Shown here piece by piece: positions 6,371-22,008 of a DNA stretch of 50,083 bases. How positions within the stretch are numbered: position 1 is the first letter of the stretch; the number at the start of each line of letters is the position of its first letter. The notes under the pieces were generated by a model. That model made no database searches. It was not told the DNA's origin and saw nothing but the letters and a program-made list of their open reading frames with translations. This DNA is from Nitratireductor sp. (GTDB lineage Bacteria; Pseudomonadota; Alphaproteobacteria; Rhizobiales; Rhizobiaceae), in NCBI GenBank assembly GCA_020441665.1, contig JAGRLT010000060.1, positions 1 through 50,083 on the forward strand, written 5' to 3'. A program made the position numbers and the translations under genes.

Positions 6371-6856
6371 TCAGGATACGATGAACGGCTCGTCGAAGAA
6401 ATATTCCTCAAGATTGACGCCTTTGCCAGCCCAATCGACGACGACGAAGTCCGAAACGCCCTCCAGCGGCGTGAGAATGCCGTGCCAGACGTTGCGGCCG
6501 ATGTTCACACCCTGACCCGAGCTGGTCACAAAGGCCAGCGGATCGACCGGAACGCCGTCCTGGTCCTTGCAGACGACGACCAGAAAGGGATGGTCGGTGG
6601 TGGGAATGAACGCCTGGCTGCCGAACGGATGTCTTTCGACCATCGGTATTTCGATCGGCAGCTTGTAGGGTTTTCCGCTCACGATGCTGATGATCGGGCG
6701 GCAGTCGTCGCCGGTAATCTCGATTACGGCGAGGTCGTGATAGCGGGTGCAATTGCCCGCATTGATCGGAAAGCTGTTCGCGCCTTCCTTCTCAATGACC
6801 TGTCCATAGCCGCTAAACGCTTCCCGGGTTAGCGGTTTTGCCTTCAACTGTATCAC
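6371..6856 (-). CDS. allA: Ureidoglycolate lyase
   Basis: Splits (S)-ureidoglycolate into glyoxylate and urea, the last step of allantoin breakdown. The 161 residues match the AllA family in length and order: N-terminal LKAKPLTREAFSGYGQVIE, ERHPFGSQAFIP in the cupin-like barrel, and the conserved NIGRNVWHGILTPL. Translation begins at a GTG (6856-6854) preceded by GGGAGGAATTC. The gene is 151 bases downstream of bhcR on the same strand and appears to have its own promoter (6888-6916). It produces the glyoxylate that the adjacent bhc genes consume, and lies about 10 kb from the other ureide genes (allE, puuE, uraH, puuD). Confidence 0.9.
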   Translation of the reverse strand: MIQLKAKPLTREAFSGYGQVIEKEGANSFPINAGNCTRYHDLAVIEITGDDCRPIISIVSGKPYKLPIEIPMVERHPFGSQAFIPTTDHPFLVVVCKDQDGVPVDPLAFVTSSGQGVNIGRNVWHGILTPLEGVSDFVVVDWAGKGVNLEEYFFDEPFIVS

Positions 6857-6887
6857 GAATTCCTCCCGAACCGTTTCTCATGAAGCT

Positions 6888-6916
6888 ATATGAGAGATAG
6901 TTGCACTTTCCTGCAA
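6888..6916 (-). promoter_or_regulatory. Candidate sigma-70-type promoter for allA
   Basis: On the minus strand, TTGCAG (6916-6911) and TCATAT (6893-6888) are 17 bases apart. A transcript starting near 6880 would have a leader of about 25 bases ending at the GGGAGG site of allA. This is inferred from consensus matching only. Confidence 0.45.
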
Positions 6917-6923
6917 GCCAGTG

Positions 6924-6974
6924 ATCCCATATCATTTTTCTATCTGTTTCTTGAAAATGCTGAAAATCCCATAT
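6924..6974. repeat. Two ATCCCATAT direct repeats 42 bp apart upstream of allA
   Basis: The 9-mer ATCCCATAT occurs at 6924-6932 and 6966-6974 in the same orientation. Start-to-start spacing is 42 bases, four turns of B-DNA. Both lie just upstream of the proposed allA -35 box, where activators usually bind. The binding protein is unknown; BhcR, encoded next door, is a candidate. Confidence 0.45.
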
Positions 6975-7007
6975 GGCGACGTTGCATTTTTGAAGAAGGG
7001 TCGTCAA

Positions 7008-7847
7008 TCACCCTTTGCCACTCTCCGTCGCGTTGAGGGGTGGCAATGTGCCGCCGATCGCCATCGTTATCTCGTCGGCGGCCTCCCGGATGATCCTTCC
7101 CCACTCCTGATACGCGTCCTTCAGCATTCGCACGGTCGGACCGGAGACGGAAACGCCCGCAACCGGCTGTCCGTCATGGTTGAATATCGGGGCGGCGATG
7201 CATCGCATGCCAAGGGTGCGCTCCTCGTCATCGAGGCTCCATCCCGTCGCCTTGCACCAATCCAGGTGCCGCTCGATCTCGGCCCGCTCGGTAATGGTGT
7301 TCGGCGTGTAGCGATCGAGTTCGGCCTGTCCCAGGATTTCCGATCTTTGGGCCGACGGCATGTAGGCGAGGATCGCCTTTCCGATACCCGAGGCATGGAC
7401 GGGGCCCCTCGTGCCCGGGCGGAAGAACGCCCGGATCGGCTCGTGGGTTTCGACCTGGCTCACGAATACCACTTCGGATTTGTCGATAATGGCCAGATTG
7501 GCGGTTTCGCCGATCCTCTGCATGATCCGTTCCATCACGGGCCGGCTCTGCTCCACCAACTGGGTGCGCCGAAGGAAGGCGGAGCCGATCCTGAAGGCTC
7601 CCGCTCCCACGTGCCAGGTCTGGTTGGCCTCGTCATAGTCCACGATGGCATGCAGTCTGAGGGTCGACAGGATGCGGTAGACGGTGGGGGCGGTTTCTCC
7701 ACTCGTATCGCAAACCTCGCTGAGGGTCATGCCGCCGGAAGCCGATACGGTGGAAAGGACGTGCATGGCGCGGTCCAGCGAGCGTATCGTCGTGCTTTCG
7801 GGTTTTTCGTAGAATGCTTTCGGCCGCCCGCGCTTGCGCTTTTCCAT
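7008..7847 (-). CDS. bhcR: IclR-family transcriptional regulator, likely BhcR-type glyoxylate sensor
   Basis: 279 residues: a winged helix-turn-helix (about 22-85, TLSEVCDTSGETAPTVYRIL) and an IclR ligand-binding domain (about 95-270) with the family segments HASGIGKAILAY, DDEERTLGMRCIAAPIF and AGVSVSGPT. The basic start MEKRKRGRPKAF is also typical of BhcR proteins. In Paracoccus denitrificans an IclR regulator, BhcR, sits divergent to bhcABCD and senses glyoxylate; the same divergent arrangement is seen here, with a 184-base AT-rich gap to bhcA. An AllR-like role on allantoin genes is the alternative. AllR also senses glyoxylate, and with allA downstream one protein could serve both pathways. 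Confidence 0.85.
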   Translation of the reverse strand: MEKRKRGRPKAFYEKPESTTIRSLDRAMHVLSTVSASGGMTLSEVCDTSGETAPTVYRILSTLRLHAIVDYDEANQTWHVGAGAFRIGSAFLRRTQLVEQSRPVMERIMQRIGETANLAIIDKSEVVFVSQVETHEPIRAFFRPGTRGPVHASGIGKAILAYMPSAQRSEILGQAELDRYTPNTITERAEIERHLDWCKATGWSLDDEERTLGMRCIAAPIFNHDGQPVAGVSVSGPTVRMLKDAYQEWGRIIREAADEITMAIGGTLPPLNATESGKG

Positions 7848-7879
7848 CCGGTTTGACCTTTCCTGACTGTGAAATGGGC

Positions 7880-7931
7880 TTTCAAGCTTTGAAAAAATAA
7901 ATAAATCATATAAATCAATATCTTATATTGA
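7880..7931. promoter_or_regulatory. Two palindromes in the bhcR-bhcA divergent region (candidate BhcR operators)
   Basis: TTTCAAGCTTTGAAA (7880-7894) is a 6-bp inverted repeat with a 3-base spacer, the 15-bp layout common for IclR-family operators. TCAATATCTTATATTGA (7915-7931) is a 7-bp inverted repeat, also with a 3-base spacer, centred 36 bases further right. Both lie in a strongly AT-rich stretch between bhcR and the proposed bhcA promoter. Assignment to BhcR is inferred. Confidence 0.5.
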
Positions 7932-7965
7932 AATAAACAATTTATGAAACTATTTTTCAAAAAAA

Positions 7966-8031: not shown

Positions 8032-9222
8032 ATGTTCAGTCAAAATCCCGTTTTCATTCCCGGTCCTACGAACATTCCCGAGGAATTGCGGAGGGCTATC
8101 AGCAATCCGTCGATCGACCACAGGTCCGAGACCTTCGTCGAGATGTTCAAGCCCGCCCTTGCGGGGGTCAGGCGGATCCTCAAGACGGATACTGCCGAGG
8201 TCTTCATCTTCCCGTCCACCGGAACGGGCGGATGGGAGGCGACCATCACCAACCTCCTCTCTCCCGGCGACCGGATCCTGGCATCGCGTCACGGCATGTT
8301 CTCCCATCGCTGGATCGATCTTTGCCAGCGTCACGGCATGGATATGCAGGTCATCCATGAAGAATGGGGCAAGGGTGCTCCCGCCGAAGCCTTCGGTGCC
8401 GCCCTTGCCGAAGACAAGGGCCACCAGATCAAGGCGGTGCTGGTCACGCACAACGAGACAGCGACCGGCGTTCGTTCCGATGTCGCGGCGGTTCGCAGGG
8501 CGCTCGATGCTGCCGGACACCCGGCCCTGCTGCTGGTCGACGGGGTGAGCTCCATCGCCTCGATGGACTTCCGGATGGACGAATGGGGGGTCGATGCCGC
8601 TGTAACCGGTTCGCAGAAGGGGTTCATGCTGCCGCCCGGCCTCGCCATTCTGGGCATCAGCCAGAAGGCGATGCAGATGGTCGGCGACGCCAAGTCCTAC
8701 CGCTGCTTCTTCGATTTCAACGACATGAAGAAGATGAACGCCTCGGGTGGCTTCCCCTATACGCCGCCGGCAAACCTTATCCGCGGTCTCGACACCGCGA
8801 TCGGAATGCTTGAAGCGGAAGGGATCGAAAACGTCTTTGCCCGCCATCACCGCATCGCCGAAGGCGTCCGCCAGGCGGTCTCCGCCTGGAACATGAAACT
8901 GTGCGCCCATGAGCCGTCGCTCTATTCGGACACGGTAAGCGCGATCCGGACCCCGGAAGGGTTCAACTCAACCCAGATCGTGACCCATGCCGCGAACAAA
9001 TATCAGGTTGCGTTCGGCGTTGGATTGGGCGATGTCGCAGGAAAGGTCTTCCGCATCGGTCATCTTGGATCCATGACCGATGTGATGGCTCTGTCCGGCA
9101 TTGCCGCGGCCGAGATGACCATGGTGGATCTCGGGCTCGATGTCCGTCTTGGCTCCGGCGTCGCAGCCGCCCAGGAATATTACCGGACTCATTCGGTAGC
9201 AGCGCAGAAGGATGCAGCCTGA
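8032..9222 (+). CDS. bhcA: L-aspartate:glyoxylate aminotransferase of the beta-hydroxyaspartate cycle
   Basis: A PLP-dependent class V aminotransferase (396 residues). In the cycle it transfers the amino group of aspartate to glyoxylate, giving oxaloacetate and glycine. Motifs: N-terminal NPVFIPGPTNIPEELR, PSTGTGGWEA, THNETATGV, LLVDGVSSI and the PLP-lysine segment VTGSQKGFMLPPG with Lys196. It heads bhcA-bhcB-bhcC, has an AGGA ribosome binding site, and its stop overlaps the bhcB start by one base (TGATG). The nearest family alternative is PucG, (S)-ureidoglycine:glyoxylate aminotransferase, which would also fit a purine locus. The bhcB, bhcC and bhcD neighbours and the overall match to BhcA favour BhcA. 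Confidence 0.9.
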   Translation: MFSQNPVFIPGPTNIPEELRRAISNPSIDHRSETFVEMFKPALAGVRRILKTDTAEVFIFPSTGTGGWEATITNLLSPGDRILASRHGMFSHRWIDLCQRHGMDMQVIHEEWGKGAPAEAFGAALAEDKGHQIKAVLVTHNETATGVRSDVAAVRRALDAAGHPALLLVDGVSSIASMDFRMDEWGVDAAVTGSQKGFMLPPGLAILGISQKAMQMVGDAKSYRCFFDFNDMKKMNASGGFPYTPPANLIRGLDTAIGMLEAEGIENVFARHHRIAEGVRQAVSAWNMKLCAHEPSLYSDTVSAIRTPEGFNSTQIVTHAANKYQVAFGVGLGDVAGKVFRIGHLGSMTDVMALSGIAAAEMTMVDLGLDVRLGSGVAAAQEYYRTHSVAAQKDAA

Positions 9223-10190
9223 TGTCGGCAGAGCCTGAGATGATCATCCCGACCTATGATGACATGCTTGCGGCCCATGAGCGGATCAAGCCGCATATCC
9301 GCCGCACGCCGATTCGCGTCTCGAACTATCTGAACGAGCTGACCGGCGCGCAGCTGTTCTTCAAATGCGAGAACTTTCAGGAGCCGGGCGCCTTCAAGGT
9401 GCGCGGCGCGACGAACGCCGTTTTCGGCCTCGACGACGAGCAGGCGAGGAAGGGTGTGGCGACGCACTCTTCCGGCAACCACGCATCCTGCCTCTCCTAT
9501 GCGGCGATGCTGCGCGGCATTCCGTGCAACGTGGTGATGCCGCGCACGGCGCCGCAGGCGAAGAAGGATACCGTGCGCCGCTACGGCGGAAAGATCACCG
9601 AGTGCGAACCTTCCACGAGTTCGCGCGAGGCCACGTTCGCGAAGGTGCAGGCCGAGACCGGCGGCGATTTCGTTCATCCCTATAACGATCCTCGCGTCAT
9701 TGCCGGGCAGGGAACCTGCTCGAAGGAACTGATCGAGCAGACCGATGGCCTGGATTTCGTCGTTGCCCCGATCGGCGGCGGCGGCATGATCTCGGGCACC
9801 TGCCTGACCCTGTCGACCCTGGCGCCGGAAACCAAGGTGATCGCCGCCGAGCCTGAACAGGCCGACGATGCGTATCGCAGTTTCAAGGCCGGGCACATCA
9901 TTGCCGACGATGCGCCGAAAACCATTGCGGACGGACTGCTGGTGCCCCTGAAAGAGCTGACATGGCACTTCGTTTCCAATCACGTGTCGGATATCTTCAC
10001 GGCGTCGGAACAGGAAATCGTCGATGCCATGAAACTGATCTGGAAACATCTGCGCGTCGTCATGGAGCCCAGTTCGGCTGTGCCCCTGGCCACGATCCTC
10101 AAAAACGCCGACAGCTTCAAGGGCAAGCGCGTCGGAATCATCATCACAGGCGGAAATGTCGATCTCGACAAACTGCCCTGGCTCGGTTGA
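9222..10190 (+). CDS. bhcB: Beta-hydroxyaspartate dehydratase
   Basis: A PLP enzyme of the threonine dehydratase/serine racemase fold (322 residues) that in the beta-hydroxyaspartate cycle dehydrates erythro-beta-hydroxyaspartate to iminosuccinate. The PLP lysine is Lys59 in FQEPGAFKVRGA; SSGNHASCLSYAA is the substrate-binding loop, and GGGGMISG near residue 185 holds the cofactor phosphate. Judged alone it could be called threonine ammonia-lyase. The tight coupling (one-base overlap with bhcA, 14 bases to bhcC) decides for BhcB. It is shorter than biosynthetic IlvA because it lacks the C-terminal ACT-like regulatory domain. Confidence 0.9.
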   Translation: MSAEPEMIIPTYDDMLAAHERIKPHIRRTPIRVSNYLNELTGAQLFFKCENFQEPGAFKVRGATNAVFGLDDEQARKGVATHSSGNHASCLSYAAMLRGIPCNVVMPRTAPQAKKDTVRRYGGKITECEPSTSSREATFAKVQAETGGDFVHPYNDPRVIAGQGTCSKELIEQTDGLDFVVAPIGGGGMISGTCLTLSTLAPETKVIAAEPEQADDAYRSFKAGHIIADDAPKTIADGLLVPLKELTWHFVSNHVSDIFTASEQEIVDAMKLIWKHLRVVMEPSSAVPLATILKNADSFKGKRVGIIITGGNVDLDKLPWLG

Positions 10191-10204: not shown

Positions 10205-11368
10205 ATGAACGCACCGGTCAATTTTGACAAACTCGAAGTCGGTTTCGACGTGCCTGCCGTACCGGGCATGGATGAAGCCGATATCCAGACCCCGTGCCTT
10301 GTGCTCGATCTCGACGCGCTGGAGCGTAACATCAAGAAGATGGGTGACTACGCCAAGGCCCATGGCATGCGGCACCGTGTTCACGGCAAGATGCACAAAT
10401 CCGTCGATGTCGCCAAGCTGCAGGAGCGCTTGGGCGGCGCGGTCGGCGTGTGCTGCCAGAAGGTTTCCGAGGCCGAGGTGTTCGTTCGCGGCGGCATCAA
10501 GGACGTGCTGGTTTCCAACCAGGTTCGCGATCCGCGCAAGATCGACCGTCTGGCGCAGCTTCCCAAGCTCGGTTCGCGCATCATCGTGTGTGTCGACGAC
10601 GTGGACAATGTGGCGGAACTCTCGGCCGCCGCGCAGAAACACCGCACGACGCTCGAAGTGTTTGTCGAGATCGATTGCGGTGCGGGACGCTGTGGCGTCA
10701 CCACCTCGCAGGACGTCGTGGCGATCGCCAAGGCGATCGATGCCGCTCCCGGGCTGAAGTTCACGGGTATTCAGGCCTATCAGGGCGCGATGCAGCACCT
10801 CGACAGCTATGAGGCCCGCAAGGAGAAGCTCGACATCGCGATCGAGATGGTCGACAGCGCGGTCAAGGCGCTCACATCGGTCGGCCTCGAGCCGGAACTC
10901 GTCTCGGGCGGCGGCACCGGTTCGTATTACTTCGAGTCCAATTCAGGCGTTTACAACGAATTGCAGTGCGGTTCCTACGCCTTCATGGATGCCGATTACG
11001 GCCGCATCCTCGACAAGGACGGCAAACGCATCGACCAGGGGGAATGGGAGAATTCCTTCTTTATCCTGACCCAGGTGATGAGCCACGCGAAAGCCGACAA
11101 GGCGATCTGCGACGCCGGTCTGAAGGCCCAGTCGGTCGATAGCGGCCTTCCGGTCATCTACGGACGCGACGATGTGAAATACATCAAGTGCTCGGACGAG
11201 CATGGTGTCATCGAGGATACCAAGGGCGTTCTGAAGGTCGGCGAGAAGGTTCGCCTGATCCCCGGCCATTGCGACCCGACCGCCAATGTCCATGACTGGT
11301 ATGTGGGCGTGCGCAACGGCAAGGTGGAAACCGTCTGGCCCGTCTCCGCTCGCGGCAAGGCATATTGA
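10205..11368 (+). CDS. bhcC: Beta-hydroxyaspartate aldolase
   Basis: Joins glyoxylate and glycine to give beta-hydroxyaspartate, the carbon-carbon bond-forming step of the cycle. A 387-residue protein of the D-threonine aldolase/alanine racemase-like fold type III family. The PLP lysine is probably Lys62 in RVHGKMHKS, matching the HxKxHK signature of D-threonine aldolases. The metal-binding His/Asp pair is visible near the C-terminus in LIPGHCDPTANVHDW. The start is the ATG at 10205 with AGGGAGC upstream; in-frame extension to the left would overlap bhcB and has no ribosome binding site. It is followed by a hairpin and then a permease, not directly by bhcD as in the Paracoccus operon. Confidence 0.9.
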   Translation: MNAPVNFDKLEVGFDVPAVPGMDEADIQTPCLVLDLDALERNIKKMGDYAKAHGMRHRVHGKMHKSVDVAKLQERLGGAVGVCCQKVSEAEVFVRGGIKDVLVSNQVRDPRKIDRLAQLPKLGSRIIVCVDDVDNVAELSAAAQKHRTTLEVFVEIDCGAGRCGVTTSQDVVAIAKAIDAAPGLKFTGIQAYQGAMQHLDSYEARKEKLDIAIEMVDSAVKALTSVGLEPELVSGGGTGSYYFESNSGVYNELQCGSYAFMDADYGRILDKDGKRIDQGEWENSFFILTQVMSHAKADKAICDAGLKAQSVDSGLPVIYGRDDVKYIKCSDEHGVIEDTKGVLKVGEKVRLIPGHCDPTANVHDWYVGVRNGKVETVWPVSARGKAY

Positions 11369-11528: not shown

Positions 11529-12974
11529 ATGGCGTCTCTGGATCAGCATCACGTCGCCCATGGCGATACCATGGCCGGGGAAAGCAAGCACACGCTGCAC
11601 CCGGTAAGCAAAGATGAAAAAACCTGGGGATGGTTCGCCATCTTCAATATCTGGGCCAACGACGTGCAGTCGTTGTTCGGATATACGTTGGTGGCATCGC
11701 TGTTCATCTCATTCGGCGTCAGCGGCTGGACGGCGTTTGCCGCGCTCATCGCCGCCGGCCTGTTCACCATGTGGATGGTCAATCTTTCCGGTGCGCCGGG
11801 CGAGAAATACGGCATTCCCTATCCCGTGCTGGCGCGGGCGAGCCTTGGCACCCAAGGGGCCAAGTTGCCGGCGATCCTGCGCTCGACCGTCGCTGTGTTC
11901 TGGTACGGCGTGCAGGTCTATTTCGCCTCGACGGCGCTGGCGCTGCTGATCCGCTCGCTTACCGGCATCCACGGTGGCGCCGAGATTCTCGGGCTGACCG
12001 GGATCGACTGGATCTCCTTCGTGATCGTCTGGGCCCTGCACATCTTCATCTTCTGGCGCGGCATGGGCTGGGTTGAGACCTTCCTCAACATCGCCGGTCC
12101 CTTCGTCTACCTTGTGATGATCGGTCTGGTGATCGTGCTGTGGAACAAGTCCGACGGCCAGCTGCTGTCGGCGACGGCGACGATCTTCGCCAATCCCGAA
12201 GGCACCTTTGCCAGCGAGTTCCGCGGCTTCATCGCCATCATCGGCACCATGGTTGCCTATTTCGCCGCGGTGATGATCAACTTCAGCGACTTTTCGCGCT
12301 ATGCCAAGGACAGGAAGGCCATGGTTCTTGGCAACCTCGCCGGACTGCCGTTCAACATGATCCTGTTCTCCGCGCTGGCGCTTCTGACCACCGGCGGTGC
12401 GGCCGTGGTCTACGGCGAGCAAATCATCAACCCGACCGAGATCGTCGAGCGCACCGACAGCGTACTCCTCAGCGTCATCGCCGCGATCACCTTCTTCGCC
12501 GCGACCGTGGGCATCAATCTGGTGGCCAACTTCATCCCGGCGGTGAACGGTATCGCCAACCTGTCGCCCGACAAGATCAGCTTCCGCCGCGCCGGCCTGA
12601 TCACGTCGGTCTTTGCGCTGATCATCGGCGGGTTCTGGAACAGCTTCATCAGCGAGTTCGGCATCAGCGGCTTCGTCAACACGCTCGGCGCGACGCTGGC
12701 ACCGATCTTCGGGATCATGATCGTCGACTACTACTGGCACCGGAACCAGACGCTGAGCGAGGATGACCTCTACGACCTGGAGGGCGGCGCCTATCACTAC
12801 ACCAACGGCTGGAACCAGCCTGCGGTCAAGGCCTTCGCGCTGGCGGCCATCTTCTCGGTGGCGACGGTCTGGGTGCCCTGGTTCGCTTTCCTCAGCGGCT
12901 ATAACTGGGTGATCGGCGCGCTCCTCGGCGGCGTGGTCTACCACGCCCTGGCCGGCAACCGCGCCGCCGGCTGA
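11529..12974 (+). CDS. NCS1-family nucleobase/allantoin permease
   Basis: A 481-residue membrane protein with about 12 hydrophobic segments. The nucleobase:cation symporter-1 pattern is clear: KTWGWFAIFNIWANDVQS at the first helix, the GEKYGIPYPVLARASLG loop, NFSDFSRYAKD, and a late IFGIMIVDYYWHRN. The family carries uracil, cytosine, allantoin, hydantoins or thiamine. Enclosed between bhcC and bhcD and near ureide genes, allantoin (or another ureide) is the best guess; sequence alone does not fix the substrate. AGGGAGAGAG precedes the ATG. Hairpins flank the gene on both sides, suggesting differential expression within one transcript. Confidence 0.85.
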   Translation: MASLDQHHVAHGDTMAGESKHTLHPVSKDEKTWGWFAIFNIWANDVQSLFGYTLVASLFISFGVSGWTAFAALIAAGLFTMWMVNLSGAPGEKYGIPYPVLARASLGTQGAKLPAILRSTVAVFWYGVQVYFASTALALLIRSLTGIHGGAEILGLTGIDWISFVIVWALHIFIFWRGMGWVETFLNIAGPFVYLVMIGLVIVLWNKSDGQLLSATATIFANPEGTFASEFRGFIAIIGTMVAYFAAVMINFSDFSRYAKDRKAMVLGNLAGLPFNMILFSALALLTTGGAAVVYGEQIINPTEIVERTDSVLLSVIAAITFFAATVGINLVANFIPAVNGIANLSPDKISFRRAGLITSVFALIIGGFWNSFISEFGISGFVNTLGATLAPIFGIMIVDYYWHRNQTLSEDDLYDLEGGAYHYTNGWNQPAVKAFALAAIFSVATVWVPWFAFLSGYNWVIGALLGGVVYHALAGNRAAG

Positions 12975-13047: not shown

Positions 13048-14013
13048 ATGCTGATTGTACCTGAGCGCGACATCGCCAACCTCATGACGCGGGAGGCCGC
13101 TTTCGACGCGGTGGAGAAGGTCTTCGCCGCGATGGCGGCCGGGGACGCCTACAACTTCCCGGTGGTGCGCGAGGCGATCGGGCACGAGGATGCGCTCTAC
13201 GGCTTCAAGGGCGGGTTCGACCGAGCCGGGCTGACGCTGGGGCTCAAGGCCGGCGGCTACTGGCCCAACAACCTTGCCAAGCGCAATCTCATCAACCACC
13301 AGTCGACCGTGTTCCTGTTCGACCCGGACACCGGCAAGGCCAAGGCGATGGTCGGCGGCAACCTGCTGACGGCGTTGCGCACCGCCGCAGCGTCTTCAGT
13401 CTCGATCAAGCATCTCGCCCGTCCCGACTCGAAGGTGATCGGCATGATCGGCGCCGGGCACCAGGCCACGTTCCAGCTTCGCGCCGCGCTGGAGCAGCGT
13501 GATTTCGACAAGGTGATCGGCTGGAACTTCCACCCCGAGATGCTGCCCAATATCGAGAAGGTCGCCACCGAGGCCGGCCTGCCCTTCGAGGCGGTTGAGC
13601 TGGAGGGGATGCGCGAGGCCGACGTTATCATCACCATCACCTCGGCCTTCTCGCCCTCGCTCATGGCCGATCACGTCTCGCCCGGCACCCATATCGCCTG
13701 CATGGGCACCGACACCAAGGGCAAGCAGGAGGTCGAGGCCGCGCTGCTGGTCAAGGCCACGGTGTTCACCGACGAGGTGGCGCAGTCGATCAGCATCGGC
13801 GAAGCGCAGCATGCGGTGGCGCAGGGATTGATCGCCGAGGCCGATGTCAACCAGATCGGTGCGGTGATCAACGGTACCCATGCGGGGCGGAAATCGGCGG
13901 AGGAGATCACCCTCTTCGACGGCACTGGCGTCGGCCTGCAGGATTTGGCGGTCGCGGCTGCCGTGGTCGACCTCGCGGTCGAGAAGGGTATCGCCATCGA
14001 GGTCGATTTCTGA
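13048..14013 (+). CDS. bhcD: Iminosuccinate reductase
   Basis: An ornithine cyclodeaminase/mu-crystallin family oxidoreductase (321 residues). In the cycle it reduces iminosuccinate to L-aspartate with NAD(P)H, closing the loop to BhcA. Visible elements: Rossmann GMIGAGHQATFQ near residue 133, the substrate-side NHQSTVFLFDPDTGKAKAMV, NLLTALRTAAASSVS, ACMGTDTKGKQE and the C-terminal DGTGVGLQDLAVAA. It differs clearly from the true ornithine cyclodeaminase at 42275-43339. The start has GGAGAG upstream. It is separated from bhcABC by the NCS1 permease but lies in the same direction with only 73 bases before it. Confidence 0.9.
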   Translation: MLIVPERDIANLMTREAAFDAVEKVFAAMAAGDAYNFPVVREAIGHEDALYGFKGGFDRAGLTLGLKAGGYWPNNLAKRNLINHQSTVFLFDPDTGKAKAMVGGNLLTALRTAAASSVSIKHLARPDSKVIGMIGAGHQATFQLRAALEQRDFDKVIGWNFHPEMLPNIEKVATEAGLPFEAVELEGMREADVIITITSAFSPSLMADHVSPGTHIACMGTDTKGKQEVEAALLVKATVFTDEVAQSISIGEAQHAVAQGLIAEADVNQIGAVINGTHAGRKSAEEITLFDGTGVGLQDLAVAAAVVDLAVEKGIAIEVDF

Positions 14014-15261: not shown

Positions 15262-15299
15262 CCAAACAAAAAGGGCCGCGGCGTTTCTGCCGCGGCCCT
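15262..15299 (-). terminator. Strong intrinsic terminator of the puuE-allE-NCS2 operon
   Basis: AGGGCCGCGGC (15272-15282) and GCCGCGGCCCT (15289-15299) make an 11-bp GC-rich stem with a 6-base loop. On the minus strand it is followed at once by TTTTTGTTTGG. It lies just after the NCS2 stop and before lrgA, the clearest terminator in the window. Confidence 0.9.
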
Positions 15300-15322
15300 C
15301 GTCTGTACGTGCGGATGGAACC

Positions 15323-16813
15323 TTAGTGGCCACCCTCGCTTGCGAGCGCCGCGGCTTTGATGTCCTCTTCGCTGCCACCGGCGCCGTTCAGGAACAGGTT
15401 CAGCAGGACGGCGGCGAACGAGGCGAGCAGGATGCCGGAGTCGATCAGCGGACCGATCGCATGCGGCAGCCAGGTGTGGAAATCCGGAGCCACCATCGGG
15501 ATCATGCCGAAGCCGATCGCCACCGCGACGATGATCAGATTGTGACGGTTGTTCGCGAAATCGACCTTCGAAAGGATGCGAATGCCGGTCGCCGCGACCA
15601 TTCCGAACATGACCAGGCCGGCGCCGCCGAGCACGGCGGTTGGCAGCGATTCGACCAGGGCGGCGAGCTTGGGCACCAGACCGAGCACGATCATGATGAT
15701 GCCGCCGGCGACGCAGACGAAACGGCTCTTGATGCCCGTCACACCCACCAGACCGACGTTTTGCGAGAAGCTGGTATAGGGGAAGGTGTTGAAGATGCCG
15801 CCGATCAGGGTGCCGAGACCGTCGGTGCGCAGGCCGGCCGACAGCATCGGCTGGGTGATCTTGCGGCCCGTCATGTCGCCGAGCGCCAGGAACATGCCGG
15901 TCGATTCGATCATCACGACGACCATGACCAGGGTCATGGTGAGGATCATGATCGGGTTGAAGATCGGTATGCCGAAATGCAGCGGCAGGATGATGTCGAA
16001 CCAGGCGGCATTGCCGACCTTGTCGAAGTGCATCATGCCGAGGAACGTGGCGAGGATGCCGCCAAACACGATGCCGATGAGGACGGCGATGTTGGACACG
16101 AAGCCTCTGGCATATTTGAAGACGAGCAGGATGACGACCAGGACCGCCGCCGATACCGCCATGTTGATCGGCGAGGCGTAGGCCGGGTTCGGCACGGATG
16201 GCGCGATGCCCATGCGGGCGGGAACTTCGGGGATGCTTCCGCCGGAAGTGCCGGCAAGTTCACCGATCTGCTTCAGCCACTCGGCATGTTCGGGCGAGAC
16301 GAGTTTCGGCGCGGTCGGGCCGACCGGGACACCGAAGATCCACTGGATGCCGACGCGCATCAGGGTGACGCCGATCACCAGGATGATCGTGCCTGTGACG
16401 ATCGGCGGGAAGAACCGCAGCATCCGGCTGACAAAGGGCGCGATCACCATGCCGATGATGCCGGCGCCGATGACGGCGCCGTAGATCATTCGCGCGCCAT
16501 CCAGGCCGGGATTGGCGATCGCGATGGAGATCATCGGGCCGACCGCCGCAAAGGTCACGCCCATCATGACCGGCAGGCGAATGCCGAACCACTGGGTGGC
16601 GCCAAGCGACTGGATGATCGAGACGACGCCGCAGACGAACAGGTCGGCGGAAATCAGAAACGCGACCTGTTCCGGTTCCAGCTTCAGAACCCGGCCGATG
16701 ATCAGCGGAACCGCAATGGCGCCCGCATACATGACGAGCACGTGTTGCAGCCCAAGCGTGAACAGCTTGGGTGCCGGCAGAACTTCGTCCACCGGGTGTG
16801 TCGTTTGAGACAT
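15323..16813 (-). CDS. NCS2-family purine (xanthine/urate) permease
   Basis: 496 residues with about 12-14 helices. Nucleobase:cation symporter-2 signatures include LGLQHVLVMYAGAIAVPLI at the start, the helix-3 segment VMMGVTFAAVGPM, and FGMVAATGIRIL with downstream NRHNLIIVAVAIG. The family imports xanthine, urate or uracil with protons. Position in the puuE-uraD/allE operon points to urate or xanthine. The start at 16813 has GGGAGG 8 bases upstream. The gene is 51 bases after allE and ends at the strong terminator. Confidence 0.9.
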   Translation of the reverse strand: MSQTTHPVDEVLPAPKLFTLGLQHVLVMYAGAIAVPLIIGRVLKLEPEQVAFLISADLFVCGVVSIIQSLGATQWFGIRLPVMMGVTFAAVGPMISIAIANPGLDGARMIYGAVIGAGIIGMVIAPFVSRMLRFFPPIVTGTIILVIGVTLMRVGIQWIFGVPVGPTAPKLVSPEHAEWLKQIGELAGTSGGSIPEVPARMGIAPSVPNPAYASPINMAVSAAVLVVILLVFKYARGFVSNIAVLIGIVFGGILATFLGMMHFDKVGNAAWFDIILPLHFGIPIFNPIMILTMTLVMVVVMIESTGMFLALGDMTGRKITQPMLSAGLRTDGLGTLIGGIFNTFPYTSFSQNVGLVGVTGIKSRFVCVAGGIIMIVLGLVPKLAALVESLPTAVLGGAGLVMFGMVAATGIRILSKVDFANNRHNLIIVAVAIGFGMIPMVAPDFHTWLPHAIGPLIDSGILLASFAAVLLNLFLNGAGGSEEDIKAAALASEGGH

Positions 16814-16864: not shown

Positions 16865-17719
16865 TCATCCGGCTGCCCCGAAGGGCGCAAGGCGCGGATG
16901 ACGGTTTACGTCCTTGTACAGAAGATAGCGGAACGGACCCGGCCCGCCGGCGTAGCAGGCCTGCGGGCAGAAGGCGCGAAGCCACATGAAGTCGCCGGCC
17001 TCCACTTCCACCCAGTCATTGTTGAGCTTGTAGACGGCCTTGCCCTCCAGAACGTACAGGCCGTGCTCCATGACATGGGTTTCCTCGAAGGGAATGACCC
17101 CGCCCGGCTGCAAGGTGACGATGGTGACATGCATGTCGTGCCGCAGGTCCTGCGGGTCGACAAAGCGCGTCGTCGCCCAGCGCCCGTTCGTGTCGGGCAT
17201 GGAGGCCGGTGCGATATCCTGTTCGTTGGTCACGACAATATCGGGATGGTCTATTCCCTCGACCGCCTCATAGCGCTTGCGGAACCAGTGAAAGCAGGCG
17301 TTCTGCGACCCGGTGTTGGAGACCTTCCATTGCGTGCCGGCGGGGATGTAGGCATAGCCGCCGGGCTTGAGGGTCGCGGTTTCGCCGGCAAGGGTCAGGG
17401 TCAGTTCACCCGACGTGACAAACAGGACGGCCTGCGCCTCGCTGTCCGGCTCCGGCCGGTCGCTGCCGCCACCGGGAGCCACTTCCATGATATACTGGCA
17501 GAAGGTTTCGGCAAATCCGGAGAGCGGACGCGCGATGATCCATCCGCGGGTCTTCTCCCAATGCGGGAACAAACTCGTGACGATATCGCGCATCACGCCC
17601 CCGGGGAGGACCGCATAGGCCTCGGTGAAAATCGCACGCCCGGTCATCAACTCGGTCTGTGCGGGAAGCCCCCCCTCAACGGTGTGATAGCTGCGGTTGG
17701 ATTTGGAAACTGCGTTCAT
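16865..17719 (-). CDS. allE: (S)-ureidoglycine aminohydrolase
   Basis: Hydrolyses ureidoglycine to (S)-ureidoglycolate and ammonia using a bound metal. 284 residues forming two cupin domains. The first (about 45-135) contains PLSGFAETFCQYIMEV, GELTLTLAGE and GGYAYIPAGT. The second (about 180-265) carries the metal ligands in FEETHVMEHGLYVLEGKAVY. The start is the ATG at 17719, whose ATGA overlaps the puuE-uraD stop (translational coupling); an upstream extension to 17770 would lie fully inside puuE. Its substrate normally comes from allantoate amidohydrolase (AllC), which is not encoded in the window. Confidence 0.9.
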   Translation of the reverse strand: MNAVSKSNRSYHTVEGGLPAQTELMTGRAIFTEAYAVLPGGVMRDIVTSLFPHWEKTRGWIIARPLSGFAETFCQYIMEVAPGGGSDRPEPDSEAQAVLFVTSGELTLTLAGETATLKPGGYAYIPAGTQWKVSNTGSQNACFHWFRKRYEAVEGIDHPDIVVTNEQDIAPASMPDTNGRWATTRFVDPQDLRHDMHVTIVTLQPGGVIPFEETHVMEHGLYVLEGKAVYKLNNDWVEVEAGDFMWLRAFCPQACYAGGPGPFRYLLYKDVNRHPRLAPFGAAG

Positions 17720-19140
17720 GGCAACATGTCCCTTAGCCGAAGCAATGCGATGCGCTCGACCTGCTCGCATGCGGTTTCAAATTCCTCGGATTTGCCGTTG
17801 TCCACCCGTTTGCTGAACGCGGCGAGGATCTGCTCCTTGTTCAGCCCCTTCACCGCGATGATGAAGGGAAATCCGAACCGGGAGGTGTAGGCTTCGTTCA
17901 ACCGGGTGAACTGTTCGCGCTCGCCGTCGGTAAGGGCATCGAGGCCGGCCGAGGCCTGTTCGGCCGTCGATTCCTGCGTCAACCGCTTTGCCTGGGCCAG
18001 TTTCCCGGCAAGATCGGGGTGGGCGGTCAAAACGCCCAGCCTTTCGTCCTGGGAGGCCGAGCGGAAGATGCGCGTCAGCGCATTGTGGAGACCGGTCGCG
18101 CCGTCATGGGCGGGGCCGAGCTCCAGGTCAAAGGCGCGTTCGGCGATCCATGGCGAGTGCTCGAAGATCGAACCGAACCGCTCGACGAAGTCGGCGCGGT
18201 CCATCTGGCTGGGAACGAGGGCGGGCCGCGCCGGGGCGTGGTTTTTCGACCAGTGTTCGGCGATGTCGATACGGCGCGGGAACCAGACGCCTTCATGGCC
18301 CGCGGCATAGTCGATGAACCGCTGCAAGGATGCCGCGCGACCCGGGCGGCCGATCAATCGGCAGTGCAGGCCGATGTTGAGCATCTTGGCTGCGCCATTG
18401 CTGCCTTCCTCATACAGGACGTCGAAGGCATCCTTGAGATAGGTGAAGAACTGGTCGCCCGAATTGAAACCCTGGGTATTGGCAAAACGCATGTCGTTGC
18501 TATCGAGGGTGTAGGGGATGATCAGCTGGTTCTTGCCGGCATGCTCGATCCAGTAGGGAAGATCGTCGGCGTAGGAATCGGAAATGTAGTCGAAATCGCC
18601 GTACTCGGCGGCAAGGGGAACCGTGTTCAGGGAAGCGCGGCCGAGATAGAAGCCGCGCGGTCTGCTGCCGGTCACTTCGGTGTGGAGCGCGATCGCCGCC
18701 TTGAGATGCTCCAGCTCGGCTTCGCGATCGAAATCCTTGTACTCGATCCACTTGTAGCCGTGGGAAGCGATCTCCCAGTCGGCCTCCAGCATCGCCGCAA
18801 CCTGATCGGGCGAGCGCGCGAGCGCGGTGGCGACGCCATATACCGTGACCGGAATTCGGGACTGGGTGAACATGCGGTGCAAACGCCAGAAGCCGGCGCG
18901 CGCGCCGTATTCGTAGATCGATTCCATGTTCCAATGGCGCTGGTTCGGCCAATTGGCAGCCCCGACGATTTCGGACAGGAATGCTTCGGACTGGCCGTCG
19001 CCGTGCAGCAGGCAGTTCTCACCGCCCTCTTCATAGTTGATGACGAATTGGACGGCGATGCGCGCGCCGTTCGGCCACACATCCTTTGTCGGGTTCGGTC
19101 CGTAACCCCGCATGTCGCGTTCGTAGCGCGCAGCTTCCAT
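17716..19140 (-). CDS. puuE: Allantoinase PuuE fused to OHCU decarboxylase
   Basis: A 474-residue two-domain protein. Residues 1-300 are the cofactor-independent allantoinase PuuE of the polysaccharide deacetylase family (VQFVINYEEGGENCLLHGD, EIASHGYKWIEY, LNIGLHCRLIGRPGR). Residues about 310-470 are 2-oxo-4-hydroxy-4-carboxy-5-ureidoimidazoline decarboxylase (FEHSPWIAERAF, AHPDLAGKLA, NEAYTSRFGFPFIIAVKG). One chain therefore makes (S)-allantoin and opens its ring to allantoate. The order of domains is the reverse of the pathway order. GGGAGG precedes the ATG. It is first in the operon puuE-uraD/allE/NCS2 permease and divergent from uraH. Confidence 0.93.
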   Translation of the reverse strand: MEAARYERDMRGYGPNPTKDVWPNGARIAVQFVINYEEGGENCLLHGDGQSEAFLSEIVGAANWPNQRHWNMESIYEYGARAGFWRLHRMFTQSRIPVTVYGVATALARSPDQVAAMLEADWEIASHGYKWIEYKDFDREAELEHLKAAIALHTEVTGSRPRGFYLGRASLNTVPLAAEYGDFDYISDSYADDLPYWIEHAGKNQLIIPYTLDSNDMRFANTQGFNSGDQFFTYLKDAFDVLYEEGSNGAAKMLNIGLHCRLIGRPGRAASLQRFIDYAAGHEGVWFPRRIDIAEHWSKNHAPARPALVPSQMDRADFVERFGSIFEHSPWIAERAFDLELGPAHDGATGLHNALTRIFRSASQDERLGVLTAHPDLAGKLAQAKRLTQESTAEQASAGLDALTDGEREQFTRLNEAYTSRFGFPFIIAVKGLNKEQILAAFSKRVDNGKSEEFETACEQVERIALLRLRDMLP

Positions 19141-19358: not shown

Positions 19359-19718
19359 ATGAAGAACGAAGGCTGGTTGAGCACCCACGTATTGGATACC
19401 GCCAATGGTTGCCCCGGGGCCGCCATCGCGGTCCGTCTGTATAGCCTGAGCGGCCAAGGCCGGTCGCTGGTCAAGGAGACGGTCACGAATTCAGACGGCA
19501 GGACCGATACGCCATTGCTGTCGGGCGAGGAAATCGCCGAAGGGGAATACGAGCTGGAGTTCGATACCGAATCCTATTTCCGGTCGCTGGGCAACGCCCA
19601 TGCCGGCACCTTCCTCGCGACCATACCGATTCGTTTTCGGATTTCGGATGTGAGCCAGCACTATCACGTTCCGCTCCTCGTCTCGCCGTTCAGCTATTCC
19701 ACCTATCGTGGCAGCTGA
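19359..19718 (+). CDS. uraH: 5-hydroxyisourate hydrolase
   Basis: A 119-residue transthyretin-like enzyme that hydrolyses 5-hydroxyisourate to OHCU, the step after urate oxidation. The N-terminal signature [17 protein letters not shown], the central [11 protein letters not shown] and the C-terminal tetrapeptide YRGS are all present, and the length is right for the family. The ATG at 19359 is chosen because GGAAAGG lies upstream and the protein then begins just before the signature. It is divergent from puuE-uraD, whose product takes the next step. Confidence 0.93.
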
Positions 19719-19757
19719 GGCGCTTGCCGGCGCCGGCTTCCGGCCGGCTTGCGGCGC

Positions 19758-20657
19758 CTATCCCAAATCGCTGCAAGAGGCGAGGATATGGTCCAGGAAC
19801 AGCCTTGCCTTGGGATCCTGCAAACGCTTATGCGGATAGACGCATGAGAGCGGGGTGGGGGTCGGCGGCGTTTCCTCGGCGACGACAACGAGGCGTCCGC
19901 TCGCCAAATGCTCGGCAACTTCGAAGCGCGGCTTGTTGACGATGCCGCATCCCGCCAGCGCCCAGTCCGTCAGCACATCGCCATCATCCGATTCCAGCGG
20001 ACCGAGGGCGTCGAACCGCTTGGGCGCGCCATTGACCCGCAACATCCAGAAAAACTCGTTTGCCCCCGGATAGCGATGCAACAGGCAATGGTGCTTGCGT
20101 TCGACAAGTTCACTGCCGCGCGCCGGTTTCCCGAACTGCTCGATGTAAGAGGGCGCGGCGCACAGAACGCGCTCCAGATCGCAGATGTGGCGTACCCTGA
20201 GATTCGAATCCGACAGTTGCCCGACCATGATCGCCAGGTCCAGTCCTTCCGCGGCAACGTCGATCTTGCGGTCCGATAGCCGCAGCCGGATGTTGAGCTC
20301 GGGGTAGGACGCCTTGAAGCCGGGAATGGTCGGGGCGATGAGTTTCTTGCCCAATCCAAGGGGCGCTGCTACAAACAAGGTTCCCCGCGGATTGTTGGTG
20401 ATGTCGCTTACCGACGATTCAGCCTCATTGATTGCATCGAGTACCCTGGTTGCACCCGTATAGAAGACTTTTCCCTGATCGGTGGGATGCAGCGCCCGGG
20501 TCGTCCGGTGGAACAGGCGAACGCCCAGATATTTTTCGAGGTCGTTTATTCGGCTGCTCGCTACCGCCGCCGAGACCCGCAGGTCGCGGCCGGCGGCCGA
20601 CATGCTGCCCAGTTCATAAGCTCTGACGAAGGTCTTCAAATTATCCAGATAGGCCAT
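19758..20657 (-). CDS. LysR-family transcriptional regulator
   Basis: 299 residues: an N-terminal helix-turn-helix (about 4-62: FVRAYELGSMSAAGRDLRVS, then VASSRINDLEKYLGVRLFHR) and a substrate-binding co-inducer domain from about 90. It is divergent from puuD across a 103-base gap with two dyads, the usual layout of a LysR regulator and its target, so it probably controls urate oxidation and perhaps uraH/puuE. The effector is not evident; urate or a ureide is a guess. Confidence 0.9.
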   Translation of the reverse strand: MAYLDNLKTFVRAYELGSMSAAGRDLRVSAAVASSRINDLEKYLGVRLFHRTTRALHPTDQGKVFYTGATRVLDAINEAESSVSDITNNPRGTLFVAAPLGLGKKLIAPTIPGFKASYPELNIRLRLSDRKIDVAAEGLDLAIMVGQLSDSNLRVRHICDLERVLCAAPSYIEQFGKPARGSELVERKHHCLLHRYPGANEFFWMLRVNGAPKRFDALGPLESDDGDVLTDWALAGCGIVNKPRFEVAEHLASGRLVVVAEETPPTPTPLSCVYPHKRLQDPKARLFLDHILASCSDLG

Positions 20658-20693
20658 GGCTCATTTTCTCGATAATCATGAAACAGATGGAAG

Positions 20694-20729
20694 AAATAGC
20701 GCTATTTTTTGAGGGTGGCAATTCTGCCA
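20694..20729. promoter_or_regulatory. Two dyads between the LysR gene and puuD
   Basis: AAATAGCGCTATTT (20694-20707) is a perfect 14-bp palindrome. TGGCAATTCTGCCA (20716-20729) has 5-bp arms and a 4-base spacer. Both lie in the divergent intergenic region and are candidate sites for the LysR protein; the second is close to the size of the T-N11-A motif of that family. Confidence 0.4.
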
Positions 20730-20760
20730 AGATGCGGCTTCGGCAATTTGTTGGGAGGCA

Positions 20761-22008
20761 ATGATGTATGACCTTGCTGTAATGTGGGACTGGTTGGGGT
20801 TTTCGGTGCGCTGGCTGCATGTCATCACCGCGATGGCGTGGATCGGCGCCAGTTTCTACTTCATCGCACTGGACCTGATGCTGAAGCCGGCGGCCGACAT
20901 GCCCGAAGGCGCCTATGGCGAGGAATGGGAAGTGCATGGCGGCGGCTTCTATCATACCACCAAATATCTTGTTGCGCCCGCCCGGATGCCCGAGCATCTG
21001 ACCTGGCACAAATGGCAGAGCTACTCCACCTGGCTTTCCGGTGCCACGCTTCTGATGATCGTCTATTGGGTCGGCGGCGAGATTTTCCTGCTCGACCCCA
21101 ACAAGGCCGAGCTGCAGCTCTGGCAGGGAATTCTGATTTCCGGCGGTTCGCTGACGATCGGCTGGCTTGCCTACGACCAGCTGTGCAAATCCAAGCTGAG
21201 CGACAATCCCACCCTTTTGATGCTGCTCCTGTTCGTCATCCTTGTGGCGATGTCCTGGGGCTACAACCAGATATTCACGGGCCGTGCCGCCCTGCTTCAC
21301 CTCGGCGCGTTTACCGCCACGATCATGACGGCGAACGTGTTCTTCCAGATCATGCCGAACCAGCGGATCGTGGTGGAGGATCTGAAGGCGGGGCGGAAAC
21401 CGGATCCAAAGTACGGAAAGATTGCCAAGGTCCGTTCCACGCACAACAACTACCTGACGCTTCCCGTGGTGTTCCTGATGCTGAGCAACCACTATCCGCT
21501 CGCCTTCGCCACGGAATATTCCTGGATCATCGCCAGCCTGATCTTCCTGACCGGCGTTACCATCCGCCACTACTTCAACACCATGCATGCCACCGGAAGC
21601 GGCCCGCACTGGACCTGGCTGGTGACGGTCGTGCTGATGCTGATCATCGCCTGGCTGTCGGTTGCGCCCATGCTCGACACCGCCGAGAACGCCGAATCGC
21701 GGAAACTCACTCCCTATGAGCAGCAATTCGCCTCGGCGGCGGGTTTCGAAGAGGCTTTCGACGTGGTCCAGGGCAATTGCTCGATGTGCCATTCGCGCGA
21801 GCCCTTCTTCAGCGAAAGCATGCTCTGGCCGCCGAAGGGCGTGGTGCTTGAAACGAAGTCGGACGTCGCGCGCCGCGCCGAGCAGATATTCCTGCAGGCC
21901 GGTGTGACCCACGCCATGCCGCCGCCGAATGCGGTGCGGACCATGACGGAGGAAAACCGCAAGACGATCATCGCCTGGTACCGCGACGCGACGCGCAAGA
22001 GCAACTGA
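20761..22008 (+). CDS. puuD: Membrane urate oxidase with C-terminal cytochrome c domain
   Basis: 415 residues. The N-terminal part (about 1-300) has eight or so membrane helices starting with WDWLGFSVRWLHVITAMAWIG, as in the PuuD/urate hydroxylase family. The C-terminal domain carries a single haem c site CSMCH (Cys340, Cys343, His344). Members oxidise urate to 5-hydroxyisourate and pass electrons to the respiratory chain rather than to oxygen, so no peroxide is formed. Two ATG codons are adjacent (20761 and 20764); the second has the better distance from GGGAGG. Followed after 124 bases by a TSUP permease. Confidence 0.92.
   Translation: MMYDLAVMWDWLGFSVRWLHVITAMAWIGASFYFIALDLMLKPAADMPEGAYGEEWEVHGGGFYHTTKYLVAPARMPEHLTWHKWQSYSTWLSGATLLMIVYWVGGEIFLLDPNKAELQLWQGILISGGSLTIGWLAYDQLCKSKLSDNPTLLMLLLFVILVAMSWGYNQIFTGRAALLHLGAFTATIMTANVFFQIMPNQRIVVEDLKAGRKPDPKYGKIAKVRSTHNNYLTLPVVFLMLSNHYPLAFATEYSWIIASLIFLTGVTIRHYFNTMHATGSGPHWTWLVTVVLMLIIAWLSVAPMLDTAENAESRKLTPYEQQFASAAGFEEAFDVVQGNCSMCHSREPFFSESMLWPPKGVVLETKSDVARRAEQIFLQAGVTHAMPPPNAVRTMTEENRKTIIAWYRDATRKSN

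Follow-up and report, generated by a model that had tools for sequence, protein, structure and literature searches.

Why would a bacterium keep genes for purine breakdown among those of the beta-hydroxyaspartate cycle (BHAC)? The question is raised by a contig of Nitratireductor sp. (GenBank accession number JAGRLT010000060.1; assembly GCA_020441665.1, 3.34 Mb in 173 contigs, 93.65% complete), all 50,083 bases of which were analyzed and are referred to here as the window. The conversion of two glyoxylate to oxaloacetate by the BHAC is established. An initial annotation of the window had suggested that urate-derived glyoxylate enters this cycle, so that purines could serve as a source of growth carbon as well as nitrogen, and judged from the sequence this interpretation is the most likely reading. 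We give a probability of about two in three to the cluster being a purine-carbon module, in which purine-derived glyoxylate feeds the BHAC and an adjoining pyruvate dehydrogenase (PDH) makes acetyl-CoA.

Gene identities were assigned by comparing NCBIfam profile scores (in bits) with curated cut-offs, and with Pfam for PuuD, LrgA, and LrgB (Table 1). Each gene that the initial annotation had named between positions 6371 and 22008 was recovered at its place with an NCBIfam or Pfam match, including all four enzymes of the cycle: BhcA, BhcB, BhcC, and BhcD exceed the NCBIfam equivalog cut-offs and align over almost their full length. Its list was amended in that lrgA and lrgB lie on the minus strand, bhcC starts at approximately position 10205, and a LysR-family gene (19758 to 20657) had been left out. 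The module also extends further than was proposed, as the genes aceE-aceF-lpdA (509 to 6296), downstream of allA and on the same strand, had been overlooked. Residues 1 to 387 of BhcC align with residues 1 to 387 of D-3-hydroxyaspartate aldolase (PDB 6qkb), which, like the chain nearest to BhcD (6rqa), presumably comes from Paracoccus. On the plus strand the order is bhcA, bhcB, bhcC, a gene for an NCS1-family permease, and bhcD, with gaps of no more than 160 bases, while on the minus strand the gaps measured from the longest frames are 151 bases between bhcR and allA, 74 between allA and aceE, 21 between aceE and aceF, and 10 between aceF and lpdA. Shared strand, gene order, and short gaps suggest four likely transcription units: bhcR-allA-aceE-aceF-lpdA (minus), of which lpdA would be the last gene, bhcA-bhcB-bhcC-ncs1-bhcD (plus), lrgA-lrgB (minus), and puuE/uraD-allE-pbuX (minus).

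By sequence, the set of proteins for the conversion of urate to allantoin is complete (PuuD, UraH, and UraD), and PuuE, which is above the TIGR03212 cut-off, is predicted to convert allantoin to allantoate. AllE and AllA were both identified and would carry ureidoglycine through ureidoglycolate to glyoxylate. Elsewhere in the host genome, on contig C125, xdhA, xdhB, and guaD lie together. The translated tail of PuuD contains a CxxCH heme motif. The longest frame of allE overlaps puuE-uraD, and that of uraH starts at 19272, with the family match beginning at residue 36 and an in-frame ATG at 19359. The model that AllA passes, NF009932, is a subfamily model, and its score falls under the cut-offs of seven other listed ureidoglycolate lyase models; its PDB matches (2bdr, 1xsq, 1xsr, and 1yqc) are chains named ureidoglycolate hydrolase. 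The nearest PDB chain to AllE is a glyoxylate-induced protein (1sq4, 456 bits), and the window protein is only distantly like YlbA (1rc6, 114 bits), which we take to be the AllE of E. coli. As well as plain AllE models, the protein passes NF040771, under which NCBI names such cupins bifunctional allantoicase/ureidoglycine aminohydrolase, and it probably acts on allantoate as well as on ureidoglycine.

To establish how often the two gene sets meet, a genome survey that the initial annotation had suggested was carried out. From a BhcC scan of species genomes, 80 named loci were used, which were the best scoring of at least 592 matches, and the set therefore leans to close relatives. Flanks of up to 10 kb were scored for six purine genes, and a locus was regarded as linked if it had at least two of them; 58 of the 80 loci have more than 9 kb on both sides, and 22 have less than 9 kb on one side. 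The pairing proved to be recurrent, with 33 linked loci (27 of the 58 with long flanks), five with exactly one purine gene, and 42 with none. The genes were found near bhcC at similar frequencies: allA in 24 loci, allE in 23, puuE in 23, uraD in 22, uraH in 25, and puuD in 21. Window genes outside the pathway served as a yardstick and were seldom found near bhcC (kynU in 2 of 80, tauE in 1, and aceE in none), and a random gene would be expected within 10 kb of bhcC in approximately 0.5% of 4-Mb genomes if shared ancestry is ignored. The 33 linked loci bear 18 labels, one of them a family name, with 28 loci belonging to Rhodobacterales, three to Hyphomicrobiales, and two without an order. Around bhcC the six genes occur in 15 order strings, some of which are truncations of others. 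A BhcC tree of 90 rows was built, in which unlinked loci with short flanks carry no label and to which nine rows were added by choice (linked, L094, L096, L098, L099, and L116 to L118; unlinked, L095 and L097). The linkage state changes at least 15 times on this tree, many forks of which are weakly supported, and gains could not be separated from losses. As the pairing is seen again in many related bacteria, it is probably meaningful.

Co-occurrence was examined in 387 sampled genomes from the class of the host, with presence limits that we set ourselves (E of 1e-150 or less for bhcC and 1e-90 or less for puuE). Using these limits, bhcC was found in 22 genomes, puuE in 152, and both in 20, so that puuE is present in 20 of the 22 bhcC-positive genomes versus 132 of the other 365 (Fisher p = 3e-7); with the curated cut-offs the proportions were 13 of 16 and 125 of 371 (p = 2e-4). 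These p values, and those given below for malic enzyme and AmiS/UreI, ignore shared ancestry. Four genomes have bhcC and puuE within 10 kb of each other, namely the host (G000), G236, G328, and G514. The stretches in the last three hold bhcABCD with allE, allA, uraD, puuE, and uraH, joined by puuD in G236 and G328; bhcR was not among the matches listed for G236. Four others (G216, G408, G450, and G516) have the two genes on the same contig but at least 190 kb apart, and in the remaining genomes with both, the matches lie on different contigs or puuE was not among the matches listed. Among the 80 named loci, malic enzyme was found near bhcC in seven, comprising 6 of the 33 purine-linked and 1 of the 47 other loci (p = 0.018, uncorrected for multiple testing), and AmiS/UreI in five, all of them purine-linked (p = 0.010, also uncorrected). 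One bhcC gene in the named set, 86% identical to that of the window and accompanied by bhcB, was found on an 11-kb contig labeled as the cyanobacterium Spirulina subsalsa (L026, positions 3693 to 4853), and is likely contamination from an associated bacterium.

BhcC relatives were identified on 117 plasmid records. Fifteen plasmid records, picked rather than drawn at random, were examined, eight of them around bhcC, and purine-breakdown genes lie beside bhc in five of these eight stretches. The Leisingera aquaemixtae plasmid has allE, allA, puuE, uraH, puuD, and xdhAB beside bhc; two Pseudosulfitobacter plasmids have allE, xdhABC, and guaD; that of Rhodobacteraceae SC52 has allE, uraH, puuD, allA, and puuE surrounding bhc-like genes that are annotated with general names; and the plasmid of Defluviimonas sp. 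SAOS-178_SWC (NZ_CP156080) is compared with the window below. G+C content gave no sign of foreign origin, the pieces of the module ranging from 0.609 to 0.643, with 0.644 for the rest of the window and 0.604 to 0.682 for other stretches of the host genome. Two plasmids have other arrangements. A 30-kb conjugative plasmid of Roseovarius (L097, 9759 to 14164) carries only bhcB and bhcC of the cycle, placed after genes for RidA-family and flavin adenine dinucleotide (FAD) oxidoreductase proteins and adjoined by mercury-resistance genes; the two genes might belong to a pathway for hydroxyaspartate itself. On the Limimaricola variabilis plasmid (L125, 477 to 25157), bhcABCD lies by two NCS1 genes, a gene of the aspartate/glutamate racemase family, a urea ABC transporter, and gcvTHP, and none of the six purine genes was found in this stretch.

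The divergent bhcR and bhcA genes share a promoter region with two conserved putative BhcR-type boxes, an arrangement that fits the two-site idea proposed for BhcR in Paracoccus denitrificans (PMC11323563, in the part available). An exact TGAAA-N5-TTTCA palindrome occurs in 40 of the 75 regions between bhcR and bhcA that were compared, the window included, and 58 have it with at most one mismatch; plain shuffles of these regions gave no exact box and one with at most one mismatch. Upstream of bhcA in relatives, the exact box was found in 38 of 80 cases versus 0.3 expected. When up to two mismatches were allowed, the largest sizeable excess was upstream of uraH (7 of 32 versus 3.5 expected, in a set that does not include the window). 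A weaker site in the window between puuE and uraH (19189 to 19211, score 14.2) is not conserved, and no BhcR site is claimed there. The possibility that BhcR regulates all of the purine genes was rejected, as the boxes in relatives do not extend beyond the bhc promoter. Any coregulation in the window would then depend on how the genes are arranged, with allA behind bhcR and ncs1 inside the bhc operon, rather than on additional BhcR sites. Induction of bhc that depends on glyoxylate, and the need for bhc in growth on glyoxylate, are described for P. denitrificans in the available part of the same source (PMC11323563).

The genes downstream of allA encode a PDH with an E1 of the homodimeric type, and the host has in addition a gene for the E1 alpha subunit of the ordinary, housekeeping type (PdhA) on contig C97. 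As the AceE family match starts at residue 33, the true start of aceE may lie further in; residues 1 to 101 of LpdA match the E2 model TIGR01348. With an E-value limit likewise set by us, homodimeric-type aceE is present in 12 of the 387 class genomes, five of which are 1.2 to 1.3 Mb in size. Among the other seven, puuE lies within 15 kb of aceE in the host and in G216, G261 differs in having aceE approximately 6 kb from a glyoxylate carboligase gene, and the remaining four showed no link to puuE or the carboligase among the matches listed. The order allA, aceE, aceF, lpd on one strand was found in three genomes: the window, the Defluviimonas plasmid, which has the nearest plasmid aceE (90.9% identity over residues 15 to 912), and G216, where puuE, uraD, allA, aceE, aceF, and lpd share one strand (86% identity in aceE) and over 1 Mb separates these genes from bhcC. 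The idea that AceE is a standing companion of bhc was rejected, as it was seen in none of the 80 loci and follows allA in these three genomes only. Separately, a stretch of G261 (L115, 4235 to 17963) has lpd, aceF, and aceE a few kilobases from its carboligase gene, pairing the same type of PDH with another glyoxylate route. Homodimeric-type aceE-aceF-lpdA cassettes on three Paracoccus plasmids (L104, 17010 to 22753; L105, 16983 to 22687; L106, 9627 to 15397) stand by genes for an L-lactate permease and lactate utilization, and polyhydroxybutyrate (PHB) genes also adjoin two of them. On two other plasmids the neighbors are neither lactate-use nor purine genes. These genes are apparently a traveling PDH cassette, and its varied neighbors suggest that it attaches to pathways that yield pyruvate.

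Taken together, the gene content suggests the following route. Urate would be oxidized by PuuD, and UraH, UraD, and PuuE would carry the product to allantoate, from which the AllE-like cupin, probably using both allantoate and ureidoglycine, and AllA would produce glyoxylate and urea. BhcABCD would then convert two glyoxylate to one oxaloacetate. The initial annotation described this chain as free of CO2 loss, which holds from glyoxylate onward; before that stage, two of the five carbons of urate reach glyoxylate (textbook). Glyoxylate would signal to BhcR, which would drive transcription of bhcABC-ncs1-bhcD and probably, from its own promoter, also that of bhcR-allA-aceE-aceF-lpdA. Oxaloacetate would be used for biosynthesis, and oxaloacetate or malate, once made into pyruvate, would be converted to acetyl-CoA by the extra PDH, so that the same substrate could also be oxidized for energy. 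Malate synthase G, encoded outside the window on contig C107 (1,156 bits, cut-off 989), could take more glyoxylate and close a dicarboxylic acid cycle, of which the host has both this enzyme and PDH. Malic enzyme was not seen in the small part of the host genome looked at, and no genome-wide search for it was made. The initial annotation had set this route against that through glyoxylate carboligase, and in agreement no carboligase match was detected in the 93.65% complete host assembly (TIGR01504, at a limit of E 1e-200 that we chose), with E. coli matching as the positive control. That none of the 22 genomes with bhcC has the carboligase carries little weight, because only 10 of the 387 genomes have one.

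Several observations weigh against a purine-carbon module. The initial annotation took urate through to glyoxylate and urea, and genes for the other steps are present; the cleavage of allantoate was skipped, and no separate or dedicated gene for an enzyme of this step was found in the host. No PF03561 allantoicase match was obtained in the host, but the control genomes gave none either, so that its absence is not established. The one strong AllC-like gene of the host passes two allantoate amidohydrolase subfamily models (693 versus 452 and 399.9 versus 399 bits) but fails the AllC equivalog (235 versus 598 bits), and its neighbors are preT-like, preA-like, and amidohydrolase genes, a cluster of the pyrimidine type, so that the protein is more likely an amidase of pyrimidine breakdown. 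Nor are all copies linked: in 47 of the 80 named loci the flanks hold one purine gene or none, bhcC and puuE are within 10 kb in 4 of the 20 class genomes that have both, the copy of bhcC on the R. pomeroyi megaplasmid has no purine genes within 13 kb, and in P. denitrificans HAMBI_2443 bhcC and puuE-uraD-allE are approximately 125 kb apart. The exact BhcR-type box was absent from eleven other upstream sets of relatives (puuE, uraH, allE, allA, pbuX, puuD, ncs1, maeB, xdhA, bhcD, and lysR; the window is outside these sets). As for the PDH genes, aceE was near bhcC in none of the 80 named loci, G216 has a 1.6-kb gap between allA and aceE, and the cassettes on the three Paracoccus plasmids that lie beside lactate-use genes are close relatives. 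In Paracoccus liaowanqingii, an NCS1 relative with 75% identity is surrounded by L-arabinonate genes, and neither bhc nor purine genes occur within 12 kb of it; malate synthase G provides the host with an alternative sink for glyoxylate.

Beyond the purine-carbon module itself, a broader proposal can be made only tentatively, and we lean against it. According to this proposal, the BHAC would be mainly a purine-carbon and not a glycolate pathway in a large share of the alphaproteobacteria that have it. Its fullest form would be a transferable module that splits glyoxylate between the BHAC, for biosynthesis, and a dedicated dicarboxylic acid cycle of malate synthase G, malic enzyme, and accessory PDH, for energy, with a bifunctional AllE in place of allantoicase and with purines as the sole source of carbon, energy, and nitrogen.

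Conversely, the bhc genes might serve glycolate, as in Paracoccus, with the purine genes kept for nitrogen and purine glyoxylate a minor input. Contig C108 of the host holds a group of glcD, glcE, and glcF (GlcF above its cut-off, GlcD and GlcE below), making glycolate a second likely feeder of its BHAC; the inducing chain in P. denitrificans runs from glycolate to glyoxylate (PMC11323563, available part); and both the confinement of the boxes to the bhc promoter and the 47 loci without purine linkage are as this explanation would have it. We nevertheless consider it unlikely, as purine linkage (33 of 80 loci) is far more frequent near bhcC than a clear glcD match (one locus, L050; three more matches have 24 to 31% identity), the linkage changes repeatedly on the BhcC tree, and in the window allA lies behind bhcR on the same strand and the NCS1 gene inside the bhc operon.

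It is rather improbable that purines are a nitrogen source only, with glyoxylate disposed of mainly by malate synthase G or transamination and the BHAC not needed. Malate synthase G is indeed encoded in the host, and E. coli can use allantoin for nitrogen according to the literature available in part, but malate synthase alone, without acetyl-CoA from outside, gives no net gain of carbon (textbook), and the enzymes physically attached to the purine genes are those of the BHAC and PDH. Least probable is a linkage that reflects only the shared travel of separately useful catabolic blocks on plasmids or islands: linked copies do occur on plasmids (the five of eight stretches above), the aceEF-lpd cassette travels with lactate-use and PHB genes and with malic enzyme, and the NCS1 relative with sugar-acid genes, but the blocks encode successive biochemical steps, kynU and tauE rarely accompany them, the association persists while the order is reshuffled, and linked copies are also found on contigs of at least 1 Mb.

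Of the transport genes in the module, that for the NCS1 permease encodes a protein that scores 254 and 234 bits to allantoin permease models, far under their cut-offs of 620 and 800, and 54 bits to the hydantoin permease Mhp1 in the PDB. An NCS1 gene stands between bhcC and bhcD in three genomes, namely in the window, in Puniceibacterium confluentis (L063, 85% identity), and on a Pseudosulfitobacter plasmid (L098, 81%). The lrgAB pair sits between bhcD and pbuX in the window, and no match to lrgA or lrgB near bhcC was found at an E of 1e-6 in the 80 named loci; relatives of LrgAB have been described as transporters of pyruvate or of glycolate/glycerate, in literature available in part. The terminator-like hairpin after pbuX comes from a scan that was overall no richer than shuffles (13 sites versus a mean of 14.0). 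Genes with more than 45% identity to the LysR gene are present in many purine-linked bhcC loci. Beyond puuD, a kynureninase-type gene, a tryptophan 2,3-dioxygenase gene, and an FAD monooxygenase-like gene follow in a row on the minus strand (22902 to 26131), forming a tryptophan/kynurenine catabolic unit by the module. Positions 27378 to 35037 hold ABC transporter genes (ABC_tran and ABC-3), a TIM-barrel isomerase-like gene, and a gene resembling those for metal P-type ATPases, with YHS and HMBD domains, and one long plus-strand frame (37185 to 40682) has pyruvate carboxylase-like Pfam domains, representing another oxaloacetate-forming enzyme on the contig.

Table 1. Features of the bhc-purine region of the window, with the profile score and curated cut-off where available
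Feature	Position	Strand	Basis
lpdA, dihydrolipoyl dehydrogenase with N-terminal lipoyl domain	509..2251	-	TIGR01350, 516.8 bits, cut-off 408.8
aceF, PDH E2 component	2262..3533	-	TIGR01348, 576 bits, cut-off 552
aceE, homodimeric-type pyruvate dehydrogenase E1	3555..6296	-	TIGR00759, 1436 bits, cut-off 860
allA, predicted ureidoglycolate lyase (glyoxylate + urea)	6371..6856	-	NF009932, 205 bits, cut-off 160
bhcR, IclR-family regulator	7008..7847	-	NF045644, 379 bits, cut-off 350
Putative BhcR-type box towards bhcR	7866..7888	.	TGAAA-N5-TTTCA, exact
Putative BhcR-type box towards bhcA	7941..7963	.	exact; top-scoring site in window, weight-matrix score 33.5 (training-site median 31.5)
bhcA, L-aspartate--glyoxylate aminotransferase	8032..9222	+	NF045640, 713 bits, cut-off 650; nearest PDB 6pk1, serine--glyoxylate aminotransferase
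bhcB, beta-hydroxyaspartate dehydratase	9222..10190	+	NF045641, 590 bits, cut-off 550; PDB relatives serine racemase, threonine dehydratase
bhcC, 3-hydroxy-D-aspartate aldolase	10205..11368	+	NF045642, 765 bits, cut-off 690
NCS1-family permease between bhcC and bhcD	11529..12974	+	closest to allantoin permease models
bhcD, iminosuccinate reductase	13048..14013	+	NF045643, 593 bits, cut-off 500; PDB 6rqa, iminosuccinate reductase, 462 bits
lrgB	14153..14869	-	PF04172, 270 bits
lrgA	14873..15232	-	PF03788, 87 bits
Terminator-like hairpin after pbuX	15271..15300	-	12-pair stem, 10 G-C pairs
pbuX-type NCS2 xanthine/purine permease	15323..16813	-	TIGR03173, 505 bits, cut-off 414
allE-like cupin, predicted ureidoglycine aminohydrolase	16865..17770	-	NF008373, 518 bits, cut-off 445; exception model NF040771, 497 bits, cut-off 350
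puuE-uraD fusion, allantoinase PuuE and OHCU decarboxylase in one reading frame	17716..19140	-	TIGR03212, 513 bits, cut-off 425; TIGR03164, 220 bits, cut-off 96
uraH, hydroxyisourate hydrolase	19359..19718	+	TIGR02962, 131 bits, cut-off 87
LysR-family regulator, divergent from puuD	19758..20657	-	family scan
puuD, membrane urate hydroxylase	20761..22008	+	PF06181 (Urate_ox_N), 436 bits

The initial annotation held that the union of these pathways had not been described. No description of a bhc-ureide gene union was found in the literature searched, of which coverage was partial, but a BHAC fed by purines is implied in PMC11323563, where, in the available part, purine bases and allantoin are listed as sources of glyoxylate immediately before the BHAC is presented. 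Two known pathways are repeatedly joined, at times with enzymes that oxidize the product.

Research on the BHAC has dealt with it as a route for glycolate released by algae. If the purine-carbon reading is correct, the cycle also connects carbon turnover with nitrogen turnover for the purines, a second widespread class of substrates, and urate or allantoin would provide growth carbon while avoiding the CO2 loss of the carboligase route. P. denitrificans HAMBI_2443, which has both bhcC and puuE-uraD-allE, is a model species for a test, and P. denitrificans lacking bhcABCD has already been constructed (PMC11323563, available part); relatives with the linked module include culturable strains.

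Of the systems compared, the Defluviimonas plasmid is the nearest full relative found, sharing with the window bhcR-bhcABCD, ncs1, an allE-like gene, allA-aceE-aceF-lpdA, puuE, uraH, and puuD. Unlike the window, its region also holds malic enzyme, malate synthase G, and an AmiS/UreI transporter, ncs1 comes after bhcD, puuE adjoins allA, and no lrgAB is annotated in the stretches examined. The bhcR-bhcABCD locus of P. denitrificans has the same four enzymes and divergent IclR-family regulator, to which the window adds the NCS1 gene between bhcC and bhcD, allA and PDH genes after bhcR, and the adjoining ureide genes; in strain HAMBI_2443 the purine genes do not adjoin bhc as in the window, and the 37 kb examined showed no allA, uraH, or puuD. 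The allantoin-inducible gcl cluster of Pseudomonas aeruginosa (PA1498 to PA1502) likewise serves the assimilation of purine-derived glyoxylate, with allantoin as a sole carbon source (PMC12694930, available part). That organism uses glyoxylate carboligase, with release of CO2 (textbook), unlike the host of the window, which is without a carboligase match. In the allantoin regulon of E. coli (AllR, gcl, and allA), as in the window, a glyoxylate-responsive IclR-family regulator is tied to allA and to a glyoxylate sink (PMC11323563, available part), but the sink there is the glycerate pathway, whereas in the window it would be the BHAC.

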